A stretch of 22,899 nt of DNA from a virus. Location of the stretch: positions 1 through 22,899 of IMG/VR virus record IMGVR_UViG_3300037245_000414; one strand, 5' to 3'. The notes beneath the pieces are model-generated. The model was not told the DNA's origin and did no database searches. It saw only the letters and a list, made by a program, of their open reading frames with translations. Of the stretch, positions 6,168 to 22,899 are shown one piece after another; position 1 is the first letter of the stretch, and every line of letters starts with the position of its first letter. Both the position numbers and the translations under genes were made by a program.

Positions 6168-8632
6168 TGGCCAAACGAAGTCGCGCGAACGAGCTGGTCT
6201 CCAAGTCGATTGACAAAGTTCTCAACGGAGTTAGCCAGCAGCCGCCCACGATCCGCTTCATGGATCAGTGTGAAGCGCAGGACAATATGATCTCGAAGGT
6301 TTCGGACGGGGTATCTCGCCGACCGCCCACTGAGCATGTTGCCCCGCTTGACATTAACCCCGTTCCGACCGAGGGCTACAAAGCCCACGTCCGCGCCCGC
6401 GACGAAGATACCCAACACCTCGTACTGATTGAGAACGGAAACATCCGAGTCTTCAATCTATTCACGGGAGTTGAGGCTACTGTCACTGACACCTCTGGCA
6501 CCTATCTTGACATCACTGGCGACGACGCTAACAAAGCCTTTGCCATCACCTCTGTCGCCGACTATTCCTTCGTCGTCAACAAAGAGACCACGGTGGCGAT
6601 GTCCACTGTGACTGACGCTGAAGCAACCCCGCCTCTGGTTAACGGCGTAACTCCCGCCCGTATCCACGAATTTCTGATCTACTTCTTTGAAGATGGAAAG
6701 GCCAGTGGATCAAACTGGCGTCACGATATTGGTGCCGTTGACACCGAATGGAACCTCACCAATACCGCCCCTACCCGTGGCGCTGAGCCCGGTGACATGA
6801 TCCTCCGCCTGACTGACCACGTTTACAACGCGACGAACTACCCGCGATGGGACTTCAACATCCCCAATATCAACGTACTTCACTGCTGGCAGGACACTGA
6901 CGTTGGTAACCCCGACTCCCTCACCGTTCCCGGCTACTTCTACAGTGATGAGGTCTACTCGTACATTGGCCCGCAGACTCAGCGGTTCTCTGACCTCCCC
7001 GCGAAAGGCGTGGATGGTCTGCTCACTGAGATCACCGGAGCCGATGGTAACGAAGAGAACAACTACTGGGTGATCTTTGATGAGGAGCTGAGTGCGTGGG
7101 TTGAGACTGTTGGCCCCGAGCAGCAGGACATCTTTGACGCCTCTACTATGCCTCACGTCCTCATACAGACAGGCGCGAGCACCTTCGACTTCAAGCCCCA
7201 AGACTGGGACGACCGCCTCAAAGGCGACGTTGACTCTGCCCCGGAGCCCAGCTTCGTAGGACGACAGATCACAGACGTGTTCTTCCACAAGAACCGCCTC
7301 GGCTTCCTCGCGGGAGAGAGTGCGGTTCTATCCGAATCCGGCGAGTTCTTCAACTTCTGGCCCACAACCGTCACTACCATCGTAGACTCTGATCCCATTG
7401 ACGCCGCCTGTACCAACAATCGTATCGCGCTGCTCGACCACGCTGTCCCCTTCGACCAAGAGCTGTACCTTTTCTCCGGTCACGGCGGAGTACAGAACGT
7501 GTTGAAGCAGGGCGGAGAGTCGATGACCAACGCCTCGGCTCAGATCGTTGAGGTGTCGGCATACCCCACATCTACTTCCGTGAAGCCCAGAGCGACCGGA
7601 CAGGGACTTTATTTCACCGTTGACCGCGGAGTATCTAGCGCTGTTTTCCACTACGTGGTGCAAGACGAGGGCCGTCCTGAAGCCTTTGACATCACCGCCC
7701 ACGTCCCCACTTACATTCCCAACAACGCCAGAGACCTCACAGTCTCCTCGAAAGAGAACATTCTGAGTATGTTCTGCGGCACCGATTCCAACACGCTTTA
7801 CACCTACTCGTTCTTCTTCGTGAATGGCGAGCGGGCTCAGAACTGCTGGTCAAAGTGGGACTTCGCTGATGACTACTCGATCCTCGCTGCTGAGTGGGTG
7901 AACGAAAAGCTCTACCTCGTGATCGAACGGACTGACGGGGTGTACCTCGAAGTCATCAATATCGCCACCCTCACGGATGGTGATTTGAACTTCCGCGTCC
8001 ACCTTGACTCCCTCTATGAAACCACTGGCGTCTACACTGTCGCCGACAACCTCACCACTTGGACACTCCCTTACGATTCTGACCCTGAGACCTACGGGAC
8101 CTTCCAAGCCATTCTGACCGACACCGACCACGGCGTCGAACTCGGCGCTGTCGTTCCCCTCACCTACCTCTCATCCACCGAGGTCACAGCAGAAGGGGAT
8201 CACTCCGCTGGAGCGGCCCACATCGGCAGGACCTACACGCACAACTATGAGTTCACCAAGCCTGTCATCACCGCCCCTGATGCGTCAGGCAGAGATCAAG
8301 TATCCGTAACACAGGGACGCCTACAAATCAAAAAGTTCAAGATTCTTACCAAGATGTCGGGTGGATTTGAAGCCCGCGTTACCAGCGACGAAGTGAACCA
8401 GAACGAAGTGGTCACTGCGGAAGCTGAGTACGTCTACATCTTCCCCTCCAAGATTGTTGGAGCGGGTACGGTGGGAAACTTCAATCCCAGAGAAGTCGAT
8501 GAATTTCTCTTTGACGTAGGAGTCGAAAGTACATATGCGAAAATCAGAATCACAGGATCGAGCCACCTACCCTTCACCCTCGTGGGAGCGGAGTGGGAGG
8601 GATACTACTCAGTCAGGGCGTCGAGGATTTGA
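6167..8632 (+). CDS. Tail tubular protein B (T7 gp12-like nozzle)
   Basis: The protein has 821 residues if it starts at ATG 6167. I prefer that start over the in-frame TTG at 6155 because GGAGGCGG (6157-6164) is a good ribosome binding site for it. The N-terminus carries the family hallmark: NGVSQQPPTIRF near residue 23, then MDQCEAQDNM and SRRPPTEHV. In T7 gp12 the same region reads as a GGISQQP motif followed by a KRPP motif. The rest is beta-rich (propeller and nozzle) with FVGRQITDVFFHKNRLGFL near 370, also typical. Six copies form the tail nozzle and contact the fibre anchors. Its last 98 bases are overlapped by the next gene. Confidence 0.96.
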   Translation: MAKRSRANELVSKSIDKVLNGVSQQPPTIRFMDQCEAQDNMISKVSDGVSRRPPTEHVAPLDINPVPTEGYKAHVRARDEDTQHLVLIENGNIRVFNLFTGVEATVTDTSGTYLDITGDDANKAFAITSVADYSFVVNKETTVAMSTVTDAEATPPLVNGVTPARIHEFLIYFFEDGKASGSNWRHDIGAVDTEWNLTNTAPTRGAEPGDMILRLTDHVYNATNYPRWDFNIPNINVLHCWQDTDVGNPDSLTVPGYFYSDEVYSYIGPQTQRFSDLPAKGVDGLLTEITGADGNEENNYWVIFDEELSAWVETVGPEQQDIFDASTMPHVLIQTGASTFDFKPQDWDDRLKGDVDSAPEPSFVGRQITDVFFHKNRLGFLAGESAVLSESGEFFNFWPTTVTTIVDSDPIDAACTNNRIALLDHAVPFDQELYLFSGHGGVQNVLKQGGESMTNASAQIVEVSAYPTSTSVKPRATGQGLYFTVDRGVSSAVFHYVVQDEGRPEAFDITAHVPTYIPNNARDLTVSSKENILSMFCGTDSNTLYTYSFFFVNGERAQNCWSKWDFADDYSILAAEWVNEKLYLVIERTDGVYLEVINIATLTDGDLNFRVHLDSLYETTGVYTVADNLTTWTLPYDSDPETYGTFQAILTDTDHGVELGAVVPLTYLSSTEVTAEGDHSAGAAHIGRTYTHNYEFTKPVITAPDASGRDQVSVTQGRLQIKKFKILTKMSGGFEARVTSDEVNQNEVVTAEAEYVYIFPSKIVGAGTVGNFNPREVDEFLFDVGVESTYAKIRITGSSHLPFTLVGAEWEGYYSVRASRI

Positions 8633-9740: not shown

Positions 9741-11675
9741 ATGGCCATTGATATTCGCAAGTACCGCTCTACGTCCGTCCGTGTCCCTACGATTGATGCC
9801 AGCACCGGACGACGTTACAACGAAGATCCGATTGGCACGGGCTTGGACCAGCTCCAACGCTTGCTCGCGTTTGGAACCGGCGTCTGGAAAGAGAAGCAGA
9901 ACGTGAAGGCTGAGCTTAACGCTGAGAAGCTCAAGGATATGTTCGCCGGCTATATCTCCTCGGATGGAGTGGAGGTGTCCAACCAACAGCTTGACGCCGA
10001 ATACTTTGCACAGACTGGAGCACACATTACTGACTTGCCGGGAGGGCAGATCAACTTGGACCGTGCAACCGGGACCAAAGCGGCGGTTATCGGTGTGAAG
10101 GACATGCACGCACAGTACGCCGATGGCGCGTTCAGAGACACAGGAGCGCAGGGAGTTCAAGAGGCATGGGACGCCCAGCATCAGACTCTCGTAGACGAAG
10201 GCCGGAACCCCGGTGAGATTGACAGCTACTATGCCAGCTCCGTGGAAGCTGTAACTAAATTGAAGGGCCTCGCACAGAAGCAGCTCACAGTCCGACAAGA
10301 CAACGAGAAGTTGGGGATCATCACGACCACCCTGACCGAACGGCTTGAGACTGACATGGACCACGACGAGACCGTAGCGGCGTTCCGAGAGTATGGACAG
10401 TCAGCGGTTGAGAATCTTCCCAATGCTACTGACGAAGAGCTTGAGCAGGGAGCACTGGACACCTTTAAATCATGGGCTACAGAGCCCCATAACCTTGATG
10501 AGGTCTCTCCGAGAGCTAAGGCCATACTTGAGTCTGGCGCAGTCTTTACATCCGCCGGCAAACGAACGCTGGACGCCATCGTTGACGCTGCTGAAATAGA
10601 TCAGGAGACCCGCGCAGGCATCCCCACAGTTGAGCAGGAAAACGAAATTCGCGCATTAGGGCCGCGGCTACAAAAGGCTTGGCTGGCAAACGACCAAGAG
10701 AAGATTGCCGAGCTGGCCAACCAAGCTATGGGCATCCACCAGAACTTCGGGATGTCATGGTCAAACGGCTTCATTGATGGTCTCGACAAAAACGACGCCT
10801 TCGGAAAGCAGGTCCAGAGAGGCTCGTCTGATGACGAACTCATCGCGCAAGGAATGGCGATCACACACTACACCTCAAATGGCCACACCGCCGCCCTTCA
10901 GGCTATGAACACCCCGCTTTACCAAATAGGACGGGGCTACACCGAAGCCGGCAAGAAGATACAAGAAAAACTGGACGCTGCGATTGCAACGCTGTCAGGG
11001 TTGGCTGAAGTACCCGGACGTGTGACCCGCTACGCCAAAGAGCAAGTCGAGGCTGACCCCAACATTGGAAATGACCTTGACCGTCCCGCTGATGCGGTTC
11101 CGTACAACGAAGAACTCGTCGGCGACCTGATGAACTACTACCTACTCAACCCGCGAGCGACTGAGGTTGACGGGCGAGATTTTGTCAAGAACCATATGAA
11201 GGACCAAAGGACGGAAGACACTCTGGCCGTGGCTCGTCGCAAAGAGAACCAAGGCACCCCCGCCACCCGAGAGATCGCCACCAACCGAGTTGAGAACGCT
11301 TCCAAGAGAGAAGCGGACACCAAGGACGCTCTGACGATAGCGAAGTCTGACGTTGTGAGTGAGGAAGGCGCGAAGACAGCATGGGTCCGAGCTAACGTCC
11401 GCGTTGGTCTCGGCGGTCAGATCCCCGAAGCCACTCCCGTGATGCCCGATGAGGAGTTGCTATCCCCCGCTGACTACCCAGATCAGCAACGTCTTGATGA
11501 CGCCAAATCAACAGAGCGCGAAGCGAGTCGAAACTGGCACACCGCAAGACGTGGCCTCAGCTTTGCAAACGAGCAGCTTACCGCGAAAGACCTACAACTT
11601 TCTCAGGACGCTAAACGTCAATCCCCTGACGCTCAGGTGATGGACGAAACTTACAACCAAGCTCTTCCTGAATAA
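9741..11675 (+). CDS. Internal virion protein C (T7 gp15-like)
   Basis: The 644-residue protein lies between the gp14- and gp16-like genes and is somewhat shorter than the T7 gp15 I remember (about 750). The N-terminus is basic, leading into a predominantly helical protein. The segment from TGTKAAVIGVKDMHAQYADG through FRDTGAQGVQEAW resembles the internal core protein family. The last 150 residues are highly charged and probably coiled coil. T7 gp15 forms the periplasmic tube with gp16 during ejection. TTAGGAG provides the ribosome binding site. I see no catalytic motif. Confidence 0.85.
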   Translation: MAIDIRKYRSTSVRVPTIDASTGRRYNEDPIGTGLDQLQRLLAFGTGVWKEKQNVKAELNAEKLKDMFAGYISSDGVEVSNQQLDAEYFAQTGAHITDLPGGQINLDRATGTKAAVIGVKDMHAQYADGAFRDTGAQGVQEAWDAQHQTLVDEGRNPGEIDSYYASSVEAVTKLKGLAQKQLTVRQDNEKLGIITTTLTERLETDMDHDETVAAFREYGQSAVENLPNATDEELEQGALDTFKSWATEPHNLDEVSPRAKAILESGAVFTSAGKRTLDAIVDAAEIDQETRAGIPTVEQENEIRALGPRLQKAWLANDQEKIAELANQAMGIHQNFGMSWSNGFIDGLDKNDAFGKQVQRGSSDDELIAQGMAITHYTSNGHTAALQAMNTPLYQIGRGYTEAGKKIQEKLDAAIATLSGLAEVPGRVTRYAKEQVEADPNIGNDLDRPADAVPYNEELVGDLMNYYLLNPRATEVDGRDFVKNHMKDQRTEDTLAVARRKENQGTPATREIATNRVENASKREADTKDALTIAKSDVVSEEGAKTAWVRANVRVGLGGQIPEATPVMPDEELLSPADYPDQQRLDDAKSTEREASRNWHTARRGLSFANEQLTAKDLQLSQDAKRQSPDAQVMDETYNQALPE

Positions 11676-16451: not shown

Positions 16452-17114
16452 ATGGCAACCTATTCCCACACCGTCATCACCCCGAGTGACGACGTTACAG
16501 TCGAATATACGATTGGGTTCTCATACGCGAGAACCGACGACGTGAAAGTCTACATTGATGGTGTAGAGATCGACAGAGGTACAGACGCAGATCAGTGGGT
16601 CTATAGTTCCGCAGGAGCTAAGATCACATTCACCTCGCCTAACCACCCCACGTCTTCACAGACACTCACCATCAAACGGGTCACTGACATCTCTGACTCC
16701 ACCACTGTGTACTCCGCTGGCACCGGCTTCAGCCACACTGACGCCAACGCTTTCATCAACCAGCTCCTCTACGCGATTGACGAGCTGCAAGTCCCGGCGT
16801 TCGACTCCGGCTGGCAGAGCGTTGCCACCCTCGTTGACGGCGAAGTTGACATCGAGTACCTCCACGGCCTCGAAGCTGTCCCCACCCGTATTCTGATTCA
16901 GTACAAATGTACGGACACTGAGCTTGGCTACGAGACTGGTGATGTTATCACGGCAGCCGAAGCCCTCATCGGTGGCGTCTTCCCTGTCTCGACTACAGCG
17001 TTCACCGCGACCTTTGAAACGATCACCGATCTACGGTTCTTCAACGTGACCACCGGCGTTGCCACAACGGCTGACGACGCCAAATGGTCCTACCGCATCT
17101 TGGCGTGGAGATAA
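16452..17114 (+). CDS. Short tail-fibre/anchor protein with T7-fibre N-terminal domain
   Basis: Residues 1-115 fit the T7 tail-fibre N-terminal domain: YSHTVITPSDDVTVEYTIG, here read as an aromatic-rich opening strand, then DDVKVYIDGVEI, LTIKRVTDIS and GFSHTDANAFINQLLYAIDE. That domain attaches gp17 to the tail. T7 gp17 is over 500 residues; this protein is only 220. The last 100 residues (DSGWQSVATL, EYLHGLEAVPTRILIQYKC, YETGDVI) look like a compact beta-sandwich knob rather than a fibre shaft. It may be an adaptor carrying a separate fibre, or a stubby fibre. A GGAG follows the previous stop and serves as the ribosome binding site. Confidence 0.88.
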   Translation: MATYSHTVITPSDDVTVEYTIGFSYARTDDVKVYIDGVEIDRGTDADQWVYSSAGAKITFTSPNHPTSSQTLTIKRVTDISDSTTVYSAGTGFSHTDANAFINQLLYAIDELQVPAFDSGWQSVATLVDGEVDIEYLHGLEAVPTRILIQYKCTDTELGYETGDVITAAEALIGGVFPVSTTAFTATFETITDLRFFNVTTGVATTADDAKWSYRILAWR

Positions 17115-17116
17115 TC

Positions 17117-17563
17117 ATGGCCCTTACACCTCAGGAATCACAACAGATGGGCCGGATTGAAGCGGGGGTAGAGATCCTCGTGGACCGTGCCGACGGGCAG
17201 GAAGAGCGTGTACTCAAACTCGAAGGCTCAGCGTCTAAGATCAAAGGTGCGCTGTGCATTCTGTCCTTGCTTTTAACAGTTGGGTGCGCGTGGCTTATCG
17301 CTGGGTGCGCCCACTACCACAACACGGACTACTACCCCAACGGCGCAATCGCTCAAGAGACCGTCAGCACCGTTCTCGGATCAGGAGAAGCTACCATTCT
17401 CGATGGTGACGATCTGTACTCAACACGAGACAACGGTCTCTCTGACAACGCACTGGAGGGTGTCGAAGCCCTCGTAACCGTGACGCCTCCCGCCGCCGCT
17501 GTTGTATTGAGCGAAGGACTCTTCGGAGGCATTGGGAGGATCGTCGATGAAGTGGTGGAGTGA
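17117..17563 (+). CDS. Small membrane protein, possibly holin/spanin-related, with lipobox-like site
   Basis: I choose ATG 17117 (148 residues), which has GGAG six bases upstream. Residues 1-42 form an amphipathic helix (GRIEAGVEILVDRADGQEER) reminiscent of XhlA-type phage membrane proteins. Residues 43-62 form a transmembrane helix. It ends in LIAGC (60-64), a good lipobox sequence, though it is far from the N-terminus for a signal peptidase II substrate. The remaining 84 residues are acidic and polar, then hydrophobic near the end (PPAAAVVLSEGLFGGIG). The gene occupies the place of the T7 holin (17.5). It could be a holin, a fused inner-membrane/lipoprotein spanin, or something else. It overlaps the next gene by 17 bases. 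Confidence 0.75.
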   Translation: MALTPQESQQMGRIEAGVEILVDRADGQEERVLKLEGSASKIKGALCILSLLLTVGCAWLIAGCAHYHNTDYYPNGAIAQETVSTVLGSGEATILDGDDLYSTRDNGLSDNALEGVEALVTVTPPAAAVVLSEGLFGGIGRIVDEVVE

Positions 17564-18014
17564 CTGGCGTAAGAAGAGGAAGAAATCAAAGAAGAAGAAG
17601 CAGCGGGCGAAAGACCGTAAAAAGCGACAGGTGGCTAGAGCTGCATATCACGCTCTCAATGACATTCCTGATCGCTTCATTGATGATGGTTGCAGCTACT
17701 CGCCTGACTCCATATTTCATAACGAGATTGGGTGGGCATGTCGCATCCACGATTACCGCTACTGCTCTCGTTCAATGGGTCCGCGAGATATGGAACCGCA
17801 CTTGAGACTGGCAGCAGATAAAGAACTACGAGCGAACATAGCCCTCTCTGTCCCGAAATGGTTGGGCTGGATTCGCTGGCTCTACTACCGCGCTGTGCGA
17901 CACTTCGGCAGTCAGACCTCGTGGGACTCCTGCGGGTACGATGCGGGTGTGAGGTGCAGACATAACCTACTCCGTCCTCGATGGATGGACCGACAAGAAT
18001 CGGAGAAACTATGA
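17547..18014 (+). CDS. DUF1353-like protein with phospholipase A2-type HD motif
   Basis: ATG 17547 has GGGAGGA (17534-17540) six bases upstream and gives 155 residues. The first 27 residues are strongly basic, dominated by Lys and Arg. The core has FIDDGCSYSPDSIF (44-57), then GWACRIHDYRYC (62-73) with the His68-Asp69 pair. AADKELRANI (89-98) and WLYYRAVRHFG (111-121) follow. The order D-CS-xP, HDxxY, ADxxhxxxh and YxAVRxFG is the DUF1353 pattern, and HDxxY followed by AD resembles compact phospholipase A2 active sites such as parvoviral PLA2. Five cysteines are present. It overlaps both neighbours and sits among lysis and packaging genes. Enzyme activity is inferred; a structural role is also possible. 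Confidence 0.82.
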   Translation: MKWWSDWRKKRKKSKKKKQRAKDRKKRQVARAAYHALNDIPDRFIDDGCSYSPDSIFHNEIGWACRIHDYRYCSRSMGPRDMEPHLRLAADKELRANIALSVPKWLGWIRWLYYRAVRHFGSQTSWDSCGYDAGVRCRHNLLRPRWMDRQESEKL

Positions 18015-18296: not shown

Positions 18297-18647
18297 ATGG
18301 CAAAGTCAGTCAAGGAAAAGCAATTCCTCTTCGCAGCTCTGATACCTGAGCTGATCCGGCACGCCTTGGACACCTCTCACAACGTAGCTTTGAAAGAACT
18401 CCTCCGTACCAAAGAGCAGGCTGAAATATACGCCGCACAAGGTAAGGGGATTAAGGGCTCTCTTCACTGCAAGGGCTTAGCGCTCGATTTAATCCTCTTC
18501 AAACAGGGTAAACCCCTCTGGGACACGGAGTCTTATAGGGAATTGGGAGAGTTCTGGGAGAGTCTACACCCCCTCTGCTGTTGGGGTGGACACTTCCGTC
18601 GCCGCGACGCTTACCACTTTTCAATCACTCACAATGGAGTCAAATGA
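18297..18647 (+). CDS. M15-family peptidoglycan peptidase (endolysin)
   Basis: The 116-residue protein has the VanY/M15 signature. SLHCKGLALD (residues 55-64) provides metal ligands His57 and Asp64. WGGHF (96-100) is followed by DAYHF (104-108), where Asp104 is the catalytic base and His107 the third zinc ligand; this DxxH spacing is the one used in T5-type L-alanyl-D-glutamate peptidases. All expected active-site residues are present, so it is probably functional as the cell-wall endolysin that replaces the T7 amidase. There is no signal peptide, so it would need a holin or other membrane lesion to reach the wall. It starts one base after the small terminase stop and its end overlaps the next ATG. 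Confidence 0.93.
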   Translation: MAKSVKEKQFLFAALIPELIRHALDTSHNVALKELLRTKEQAEIYAAQGKGIKGSLHCKGLALDLILFKQGKPLWDTESYRELGEFWESLHPLCCWGGHFRRRDAYHFSITHNGVK

Positions 18648-19433: not shown

Positions 19434-21170
19434 ATGGCGTCAGCAGCAGCCTTGGGCAAGGCACAGGCCGACTTCCGAATCTTCCTGTTTCTCATCTGGA
19501 AGCATTTGGGTCTCCCTGATCCGACGCCCCGACAGTACGAGATCGCAGAGTACCTTCAACATGGCCCGCGACGTAAGGGCATCCTCGGCTACCGGGGCAT
19601 TGGCAAGAGCTGGATCACCTCGGCCTTCGTCCTCTGGCTCCTGTGGCGGGATAGCGAGTTGAAGATCCTCGTGGTCTCTGCTTCAAAAGAACGTTCTGAC
19701 TCCTTCTCAATCTTTACCAAGCGGCTCCTCGCGGAGGTCGATTTTCTGAGTCACCTTGCTCCCAATCCCCGGATGGGTGACAGAGATTCCAACGTAGCAT
19801 TTGATGTTAGAGGTTGCCGCCCTGCCCATGCGCCCTCTGTCAAATCAGTTGGCATCACCGGCCAGATCGCGGGGAGCCGTGCGGACTACATCGTCTGCGA
19901 CGACGTTGAGGTACCGAACAACTCCGAGACCGCAACCCAGCGGGAGAAGCTACTCATCCGCTGTACTGAGCTGGGTGGTGCTGTGTTGACCCCTGACTCA
20001 CAGAACCCCGAGGGCGGCGTGACCTTCCTCGGTACCTACCAAGTCGAGGACAGCCTCTACAACAAGTTGGAGGAGAAGGGCTACGTTCTCCGCATTTGGC
20101 CCTCTGAGATGCCCGAAGAACTCAGCAAGTACCAAGGACGACTGGCTCCGTGGATTCCCACGGCTGACCTCCCCGCCGGCACGGCCCTTGACCCCGACCG
20201 CTTTGACTCCGCTGAACTCCAAGAGAGGCGCATCGAGTACGGTGGCGGCGGGTACGCCCTTCAATTCATGCTGGACACCAGCGTGGCAGACGAGAACATC
20301 CACCCTCTGAAGACCCGTGACCTCGTTGTCATGGACGTGGATGTAGACGTTGCCCCTGACTTCGTTGTCTGGTCAGGCGGTGACGCACAGACTATGGAAT
20401 ACCTCCCCAATGTAGGGCTCCACGGCGACAGGTTCCAAGAGCCTATGAAGATTGCGGAGGAGTTCTCCCCGTATACAGACACCGTGATGTACGTTGACCC
20501 GTCGGGACGAGGTAAAGACCAGACGGCCTATGCCATCATCAAGATGCTGAACGGTCTGATCTTCCTTTATGACTGGGGTGCCCTGCAAGGTGGTTACGAG
20601 AACTCCACTCTCACCAAGCTGGCAACCCTCGCGCGTGACGCGAAGGTCAACTCTATCATCGTAGAGGACAACTTCGGCGACGGAATGTATGAGCAACTCC
20701 TCATGCCTGTCGTCATGAAGATCATCAAGTTCAAACGCCATGACGGCGAGAAACAGGAAGGCTGTCATGTCGAAGGTCACCGCGCTACCGGGCAGAAGGA
20801 AGTCCGTGCTATCGAAACCCTTGAGCCCGTCCTTGCAGGCCACAGGCTCGTAATTGACACGGCCTTGGTCAAGCGTATCGCGGCAGCAAAAGATCGCGCT
20901 ATGGACGCTGACGCCGCGCTGAAGAGCGGTTTCTTCCAGATGACACGCCTCACCAAGGACCGCGGATGCCTCAAGTATGATGACTGGATCGACGCCCTGA
21001 GTGGCGCAGTCCGGTGGATCACTGAGACCCTCGGCCTTGACGTGCGGAAGGAAGCGAAGGAACGGCAGTCTGAAAGGCTCGACGAAGAGCTGCTCAAATT
21101 TGAAGAGAGTATCCTCGGAGACAGACCTCAGGGCACTTGGACCACCAACTTTACAAAGGACACCCCATGA
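19434..21170 (+). CDS. Terminase large subunit (T7 gp19-like packaging ATPase/nuclease)
   Basis: The 578-residue protein carries both motor domains. GYRGIGKS at residues 52-59 is the Walker A motif, DYIVCDDVE at 151-159 the Walker B and catalytic carboxylates, and GGVTFLGTYQ near 194-203 the coupling motif C region. The nuclease domain has MYVDPSGRGKD (352-362, acidic residue D355), SIIVEDNFGDG (407-417, E411) and YDDWIDALSGA (515-525, D520), the three clusters of RNase H-type terminase nucleases. TAGGAG provides the ribosome binding site. T7 gp19 has about 586 residues. Its stop overlaps the start of the fibre-like gene by three bases. Confidence 0.97.
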   Translation: MASAAALGKAQADFRIFLFLIWKHLGLPDPTPRQYEIAEYLQHGPRRKGILGYRGIGKSWITSAFVLWLLWRDSELKILVVSASKERSDSFSIFTKRLLAEVDFLSHLAPNPRMGDRDSNVAFDVRGCRPAHAPSVKSVGITGQIAGSRADYIVCDDVEVPNNSETATQREKLLIRCTELGGAVLTPDSQNPEGGVTFLGTYQVEDSLYNKLEEKGYVLRIWPSEMPEELSKYQGRLAPWIPTADLPAGTALDPDRFDSAELQERRIEYGGGGYALQFMLDTSVADENIHPLKTRDLVVMDVDVDVAPDFVVWSGGDAQTMEYLPNVGLHGDRFQEPMKIAEEFSPYTDTVMYVDPSGRGKDQTAYAIIKMLNGLIFLYDWGALQGGYENSTLTKLATLARDAKVNSIIVEDNFGDGMYEQLLMPVVMKIIKFKRHDGEKQEGCHVEGHRATGQKEVRAIETLEPVLAGHRLVIDTALVKRIAAAKDRAMDADAALKSGFFQMTRLTKDRGCLKYDDWIDALSGAVRWITETLGLDVRKEAKERQSERLDEELLKFEESILGDRPQGTWTTNFTKDTP

Positions 21171-22899
21171 AACGAATTCTACTCACAGCACTCCTGACAT
21201 TCGCCTTCGCGGTTCCTTCATTTGGTGCGGCCACGGGTGAGAGAGAGATCCAAGAAGAGCTGTTGAATATGTTTCGCGGGGAGATCTCTGAACTCACTGA
21301 CTTTGATGACGAGCTGTGCGGAGCGGAAGATGGCACCTTCGGTCTGATTAGCACGGATGGCGTGTGGTCCTGTGAAGACGCTGGCGACTTCCTTGGCTTC
21401 GATCCTGACCTCTACTTAACCCACGCTGGCAGCCCCAACGACATGACCGTAGAGATCTGCGGTCACAACAACACCGCCGACAACTGTGCCACCTCCAACT
21501 GGGTCATCTCCATACTGGGCCGCGCCACCTTTGACGGATACGTCCTCTCGAAAGACCTCGGTATGCCCGTAGGCGAAAGTGGTGGAATGAATATCGGCGA
21601 CCAAGGCGAGCCCCTCGATGGTGTATGGGTCAAGACTGGTGGCTTGTGGTCTGTCATGCGAGATGGGCGCTACTTCACTGTAGACGGTACCGCAGGACTC
21701 CCCGCATTCTCTTTTGACTCTGATATAACCACGGGGATGTACCTCTTCCAAGCCAACAAGATCCGAATAGGCGTGAACGGTGCGCCGGTTCTCGGCATCA
21801 ACATCGAAGACATCACCGCGTACTGGCCGGTCCTCGGAGTAGACGGAACCGTTACCAATCCCAGCTACTCCTTCTCTGGCGCGACCACCACCGGCTTCTT
21901 CCTTTCCGGCTCTAGCCCCGCTGTTACAATCGCCGGCACAGCACGGTACTACTTCACCTCATCGTACTTCCAAACCGAACCTCTCCGCGTCAGCAACACG
22001 TCGGGCGTGGGGGAACCGGGCTTCTCGTTCCTCATCGACCCGAATACCGGAATGTACCACGACGCCGACGACGACAATGACATCCACTTTGCTTCTGGTG
22101 GTGTCCACGCCGCGACGTTGAACACTACAGCTCTCACCCTTTCAGGACAGCTCATCTTCTCCAACTCGGGCTCGACCACAGACAGCGCAGTGAGCTTTGC
22201 TGGTGACACCGGCACAGGGTTCTTCCACTCCAGTGACGGCTACATTACGTGGACCTCCAACAACTCCGCTCGCCTCCGCATTGGTGAAGTGAACGTCAAG
22301 GTCTACTCCCCGCTTCAGATTCAAACTGGAGCGGTAGGCGTTCCTGCTCTCAACTTCTCTAACGATGTCACCACCGGCCTCTACCAAGTGACTGAAGGTG
22401 ACGGCGACATCGACTTCACCTCTGCTGGTGTCCACGCCGCGACCTTGGACGCCGCCGCCCTCACCCTTACAGGCGGGATTCGCGTAGCCAACGGCCTAAC
22501 CGGCACCCCTTCTATAACGTTCAAGAACGATGACGACTCCGGCCTCTACTTGGTCACGTTGGGTCAGTGGCGCATGGTGAGCAACAGTAACGCGAAGTTC
22601 GAGATTGGACCTACCTACGTCAAGGCGTTTGACAACTTCTTCCTCATTGACGGCACCGAAGCTGCTCCCGCAGTAGTCGCCTCTTCTGAAACCAGCACCG
22701 GTATCTACTTCACATCGAGCGCCTTCAACGTGAGTGTGGACGGCACCAACGCCATGACCCTCAACGCCACTGGCCTCACGCTTGCAGGCACGTTGAACGC
22801 GGGTGATGGCCTCCTCGCTACTCCGGGGCTCTCCTTCGCCAACCACACCGGCACGGGGATCTACTGGCACGCCAACGGATACCCCGCTTTAGCCGTCAC
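21167..22899 (+). CDS. Fibre-like repeat protein with N-terminal signal peptide, 3' end outside window
   Basis: The frame is open from ATG 21167 to the edge (577 codons read). AAAGGA lies seven bases upstream. Residues 2-3 are Lys-Arg, 4-17 are hydrophobic, and SFG-A at 18-21 is a good signal peptidase I site, so this looks like a Sec signal peptide. Residues 24-170 form a head domain containing all four cysteines seen (51, 69, 98, 107). From residue 179 the pattern P-x-x-S/T-F-x-x-D-x-x-T-G-x-Y repeats eight times at 52-56 residue spacing, a motif I know from phage tail fibres that often end in a chaperone domain. The C-terminus is not visible. It is most likely a fibre or adhesin; the signal peptide is the odd point. 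Confidence 0.85.
   Translation, partial: MKRILLTALLTFAFAVPSFGAATGEREIQEELLNMFRGEISELTDFDDELCGAEDGTFGLISTDGVWSCEDAGDFLGFDPDLYLTHAGSPNDMTVEICGHNNTADNCATSNWVISILGRATFDGYVLSKDLGMPVGESGGMNIGDQGEPLDGVWVKTGGLWSVMRDGRYFTVDGTAGLPAFSFDSDITTGMYLFQANKIRIGVNGAPVLGINIEDITAYWPVLGVDGTVTNPSYSFSGATTTGFFLSGSSPAVTIAGTARYYFTSSYFQTEPLRVSNTSGVGEPGFSFLIDPNTGMYHDADDDNDIHFASGGVHAATLNTTALTLSGQLIFSNSGSTTDSAVSFAGDTGTGFFHSSDGYITWTSNNSARLRIGEVNVKVYSPLQIQTGAVGVPALNFSNDVTTGLYQVTEGDGDIDFTSAGVHAATLDAAALTLTGGIRVANGLTGTPSITFKNDDDSGLYLVTLGQWRMVSNSNAKFEIGPTYVKAFDNFFLIDGTEAAPAVVASSETSTGIYFTSSAFNVSVDGTNAMTLNATGLTLAGTLNAGDGLLATPGLSFANHTGTGIYWHANGYPALAV
21701..22864 (+). repeat. Eight-unit protein repeat of about 53 residues in the fibre-like gene
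   Basis: Units begin at residues 179, 232, 284, 340, 393, 448, 501 and 553, each with a variant of PxxSFxxDxxTGxY (PAFSFDSDITTGMY, PSYSFSGATTTGFF, PALNFSNDVTTGLY and so on). Between them lies a strand-rich segment, often with GVHAATL and an ALTL or GLTL element. Spacing is 52 to 56 residues. The regular period fits a beta-helical or triple-beta fibre shaft. Copies differ at DNA level, so the array is old. Confidence 0.9.

Follow-up and report, generated by a model that had tools for sequence, protein, structure and literature searches.

The window, as we call the whole stretch of DNA analysed, is an IMG/VR contig of 22,899 bp with the gene set of a T7-like podovirus, including virion genes for the portal, a Gp10A-type capsid protein, the tube, the nozzle and a T7 gp17-type fibre N-domain. 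At its right end, the gene for the terminase large subunit (TerL) is followed by a gene for a putatively exported, fibre-like protein (Table 1), which begins with an ATG at 21167 and is cut by the contig end, so that its C-terminus is missing. Elsewhere in the window, a ClpP-type protease (381-983; PF00574, 5.7e-25) is encoded upstream of the portal gene, and a small protein just before the small terminase (17532-18011) gives a weak PF09056 match (E 0.0099); the forms of this protein in two relatives described below (L002:4944-5429; L105, about 7750-8209) have a C..HD..YC motif resembling that of prokaryotic phospholipase A2.

Table 1. Features at the right end of the window and their supporting evidence
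Feature	Coordinates	Strand	Evidence
Short tail fibre of the T7 gp17 type, encoded separately, 220 aa, without signal peptide	16452..17114	+	PF03906 6.3e-6
Endolysin, peptidase M15 type	18297..18647	+	PF13539 1.1e-5
TerL, T7-type	19434..21170	+	PF22530 6.9e-33; phrog_38 3.5e-99
Fibre-like protein with predicted signal peptide, 5' 577 codons	21167..22897	+	frame open to contig end
Predicted Sec-type signal peptide MKRILLTALLTFAFAVPSFG	21167..21226	+	rule-based; conserved in L002
Post-signal module AATGEREIQEELLNMFRGEISELTDFDDELC...VWSCE with C51 and C69	21227..21376	+	similarity to L002 and G010a
Insertion with C98 and C107	21377..21676	+	mostly absent from L002 (alignment)
About eight cysteine-free fibre-type repeats, 52-56 residues	21677..22897	+	anchors, direct repeat, PHROG

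The TerL stop codon and the start of the fibre-like gene overlap (ATGA), and the ATG is preceded by an AAAGGA ribosome site, which is also present in L002; an in-frame TTG also lies upstream. Since a scan for sigma-70-type signals found neither a promoter nor a terminator at this junction, we infer from the sequence that the gene is likely co-expressed with TerL late in infection.

Residues 1-20 of the fibre-like protein (MKRILLTALLTFAFAVPSFG, then AATG) comprise two basic residues (KR at 2-3), a hydrophobic core of 13 residues (ILLTALLTFAFAV, residues 4-16) with a mean Kyte-Doolittle value of 2.58, against 1.36 for the best 13-mer after residue 20, a helix breaker (P17) after the core, and the cleavage motif PSFG/AATG. 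The Sec-type signal peptide claimed in an earlier note on this DNA is thus borne out by rule, its KR pair and SFG-A site standing and its 14-residue core being one residue too long. The stretch after the core, AVPSFGAATG, has no cysteine and so no lipobox of the Llp/Cor type. In L002, whose TerL is 82% identical, the counterpart of this segment is MKRILLTLLLTLAFAIPSYG; over the 20 codons of the signal peptide 15 are changed, 11 of them synonymously, and the remaining four swap hydrophobic or aromatic residues, in a stretch so short that no dS, and hence no ratio, can be computed. This synonymous bias, together with the recurrence of signal peptides in all five members of the clade defined below, points to more than a chance hydrophobic N-terminus. 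The n-region, h-region and SPase I site, found by rule and kept in homologues, mark the protein as a predicted Sec substrate, the rule being home-made and returning some false positives.

The protein has exactly four cysteines (51, 69, 98 and 107), all within the first 107 residues, and its overall cysteine density is low (0.7 per 100 aa). The positions named for a four-cysteine head domain are therefore correct, but as a conserved domain it does not hold: only C51 and C69 recur in relatives, C98 and C107 lying within an insertion that L002 mostly lacks. Residues 1-71 are 65% identical between the window protein and L002 (E 1e-28), and the post-signal module within this stretch recurs in G010a, where it is internal (L002 module against G010a residues 255-302, E 1.1e-5; window module against G010a, 0/2000 shuffles). 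The module was not found in L003a, L003b, L105a or L105c. L003a found no support as a homologue of the head (BLASTP E 0.82, 395/1000 shuffles).

The repeats that follow the head start near residue 170, with TG[IMLF][YF] anchors at 189, 242, 294, 350, 403, 511 and 563, and the translation shows a further repeat position, SGLY, near 457; a direct repeat of 101 nt with 73% identity lies in the same region. The cysteine-free fibre repeats reported earlier are confirmed, and they give weak PHROG matches to virion structural and tail fibre families (best E 5.9e-6); it is because of the repeats and these matches that we call the protein fibre-like. No match was obtained in Pfam or NCBIfam, and the PF03906 adapter domain of gp17-type fibres was not found in 21167-22897. 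At the protein level, the full gene, G010a and L105c had no match among 50,697 phage records, and scans of viral contigs with the head, L003a and the repeats added no new relatives, the A1 scan returning only L002. Against PDB sequences, the window protein had two weak chance-level matches and L105c none. AlphaFold2 did not resolve the fold of the N-domain (window residues 21-330 with L002, pLDDT 32.5), and L105c alone reached a pLDDT of 34.

Relatives were gathered by TerL from viral contigs and genome contigs, and the clade consists of the five phages whose TerL is at least 54% identical to that of the window (54-100%, window included): the window phage, L002, L105, L003 and G010, a 43.8-kb relative reached via its portal. 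Signal-peptide proteins of at least 150 aa, nine in total, lie just downstream of TerL in all five: one in the window, one, partial, in L002, two in G010 (444 and 183 aa), three in L105 (214, 216 and 632 aa) and two in L003 (255 and 497 aa). Conservation of the signal peptide at this slot in related podoviruses, which the earlier note had proposed to check, thus extends to the entire clade. A chimeric assembly was rejected, as the order of TerL and cassette is identical in independent contigs. The rule-defined signal is carried by 9/10 cassette genes against 5/78 other sense genes (at least 150 aa; Fisher p 3e-8, an indicative value, since the rule was written after the cassette had been seen and gene calling relied on a simple longest-ORF method). 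At 174 comparator TerL loci (<52% identity; up to 4 kb scanned after TerL, with a minimum of 450 bases available), a signal-rule scan judged by eye revealed no fibre cassette; 26 of the loci had a rule match of any size, and the matches of at least 150 aa, at eight loci, look, by eye, like host genes, non-secreted or unrelated proteins.

The passenger domains of the cassette proteins are largely swapped. Fibre repeats are found in the window and L002, G010a shares one region with L003b (E 4e-24) and a C-terminal one with G010b (E 1e-25), and L105c looks by eye like a beta-helix. The mature cysteine count is even in all seven complete proteins (12, 12, 10, 4, 4, 4 and 18; p 0.008), where the counts for G010b, L105a and L105b assume cleavage downstream of a cysteine lying in the signal, and it is also even in the two truncated proteins (window and L002), in support of the suggestion that the cysteine pattern would suit oxidation. 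Cysteine density in the cassette is 2.4 per 100 aa, nearly threefold the 0.8 of these phages' other genes.

Several other features of these genomes were noted. Tyrosine recombinase genes occur in G010 and L105, and a T7-type RNA polymerase-like gene was seen by eye further on in G010, from which both appear to be temperate T7-like phages. In its late region (L104 and L102 reverse complements joined, 10678-11412), G010 has a gene whose product is probably an internal virion protein and starts with a signal-like hydrophobic segment. After the signal-peptide genes of L003, the product of 7499-8074 has a sulfotransferase-like N-terminus (TGLMRSGTSFLARTL), with no sulfotransferase match in Pfam. 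A Phycisphaerales host, suggested by the MAG that holds L105, is unsupported: other genomes among 298 of the class have no TerL match at E 1e-60, and tetranucleotide similarity is only moderate. The best-studied superinfection-exclusion proteins of phages, of the Llp/Cor type, are small lipoproteins, and four temperate T7-like phages or prophages (L152, L154, L169 and L195) have a lipoprotein-like gene of 134-148 aa in the same post-TerL region, possibly encoding superinfection-exclusion lipoproteins.

Each phage of the clade also encodes a separate gp17-type fibre without a signal peptide, of 220 aa in the window, 216 in L002, 219 in G010, 419 in L003 and 299, twice, in L105, where PF03906 matches the first of the pair and the second was assigned by similarity. 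The putatively exported protein is therefore not the sole fibre candidate, in keeping with the earlier proposal of a role other than that of a conventional tail fibre. At their ends the short adapters have a tip-like domain of their own, common to the window, L002, G010 and L105, which argues that they are complete, although they may also serve in docking.

The clade-wide retention of signal-bearing proteins suggests that their site of action is the host envelope or the space beyond it, and that they are not ordinary tail fibres. With somewhat less than even confidence, we propose that they make up a late cassette of fibre- or adhesin-like proteins that leave the cytoplasm through Sec, form disulfides and act in the periplasm, at the envelope or once the cell has lysed. 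Their likeliest use would be receptor masking or superinfection exclusion; export, disulfide formation, the fibre fold, timing and receptor masking are all points that we infer. Such a cassette would be rapidly swapped at the right end, after TerL, within a clade of T7-like podoviruses, and would be translated late, alongside TerL. By means of its signal peptide the window protein would reach the periplasm; there C51 could pair with C69 and C98 with C107, and the repeats would then fold into a fibre able to bind an envelope component, from the periplasm or after release by lysis. Most plausibly, the phage's own receptor would be blocked, and progeny would not be trapped by late-infected cells and debris; the exported proteins may alternatively dock on virions after lysis. 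By eye, the complete relatives show neither an outer-membrane anchor nor a lipobox, which leaves surface display in a diderm host unexplained. Domain swapping and the shared post-signal motif would fit virion receptor-binding proteins as well.

The cassette might encode accessory receptor-binding proteins that are exported, folded with disulfides in the periplasm and docked on virions during or after lysis, for instance through the post-signal motif and a short gp17 stub. Three of the five phages have adapters of 216-220 aa, which is short for gp17, the passengers are of fibre type, and the post-signal module is common to otherwise different passengers (L002 against G010a, E 1e-5). Podovirus tails are, however, assembled in the cytoplasm, the short adapters carry their own tip-like domain, and the module, which lies in the interior of G010a, went undetected in L003a, L003b, L105a and L105c; we consider this reading unlikely. 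The broader idea that the clade sends receptor-binding-type fibres out through Sec, for oxidation in the periplasm and a function outside the cell, with possible docking on virions at lysis, is likewise unlikely; if true, the host secretion pathway would make some of the fibres of a tailed phage.

A secreted adhesin, depolymerase or lysogenic-conversion factor altering the host surface or biofilm, carried by temperate T7-like phages, would fit the tyrosine recombinases of G010 and L105 and the small lipoprotein at the same slot in other temperate T7-like prophages. Yet the overlap with TerL and the lack of a detected promoter suggest late lytic expression, no enzymatic domain was found and the evidence of an integrase comes from two of the five phages, G010 and L105, so that we consider it quite unlikely. 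Less likely still is a conventional virion fibre whose uncleaved hydrophobic N-terminus inserts in the tail, the alternative of the earlier note. In its favour, the probable internal virion protein of G010 has a signal-like N-terminus and the repeats match virion and tail fibre families in PHROG; against it, passengers unrelated to one another share the pattern of basic n-region, hydrophobic core and small-X-small cleavage site, cysteine counts are even and a separate gp17-type fibre is present.

A literature search, weak as evidence of novelty because subscription papers were mostly outside its coverage, found no Sec-exported fibre of a tailed phage. Compared with T7 gp17-type fibres (PF03906), the window protein shares a fibre-like architecture and a place in the phage late region, but it lacks PF03906, has a signal peptide by rule and sits after TerL. 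Similar in plan are the mosaic adhesive trimer (MAT) proteins of Bdellovibrio, phage-fibre-like exported adhesins led by signal peptides (PMC10769870). The order of signal peptide and fibre-like architecture and the mosaic domains are alike, MAT acting as an exported adhesin; MAT proteins are, however, encoded by a bacterium and the window protein by a phage. In the window protein a predicted signal peptide and repeats are seen, the N-domain model is of low pLDDT (32.5), the sequence has no meaningful match among solved structures, and an S74 or tip domain would lie beyond the truncation at the contig end. As for function, Llp of phage T5 masks FhuA from the periplasmic side in infected cells, and the same paper accounts for such proteins in part by non-productive adsorption to fragments of lysed cells (PMC9586334). 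Like Llp and Cor, the cassette proteins would be phage-encoded and exported, and periplasmic receptor masking is the role that we propose for them; Llp is a small lipoprotein, whereas they measure 183-632 aa, have no recognisable lipobox and are fibre- or sandwich-like. Llp shows that a periplasmic phage protein can close a receptor, and MAT that phage-fibre-like proteins led by signal peptides can serve as exported adhesins; neither is evidence that the window protein does so. If borne out, a conserved late cassette of swapped fibre-like proteins that are exported, rich in disulfides and larger than the Llp/Cor lipoproteins would represent a new phage strategy at the envelope, or else a sign of a tailed phage maturing its fibres through Sec.
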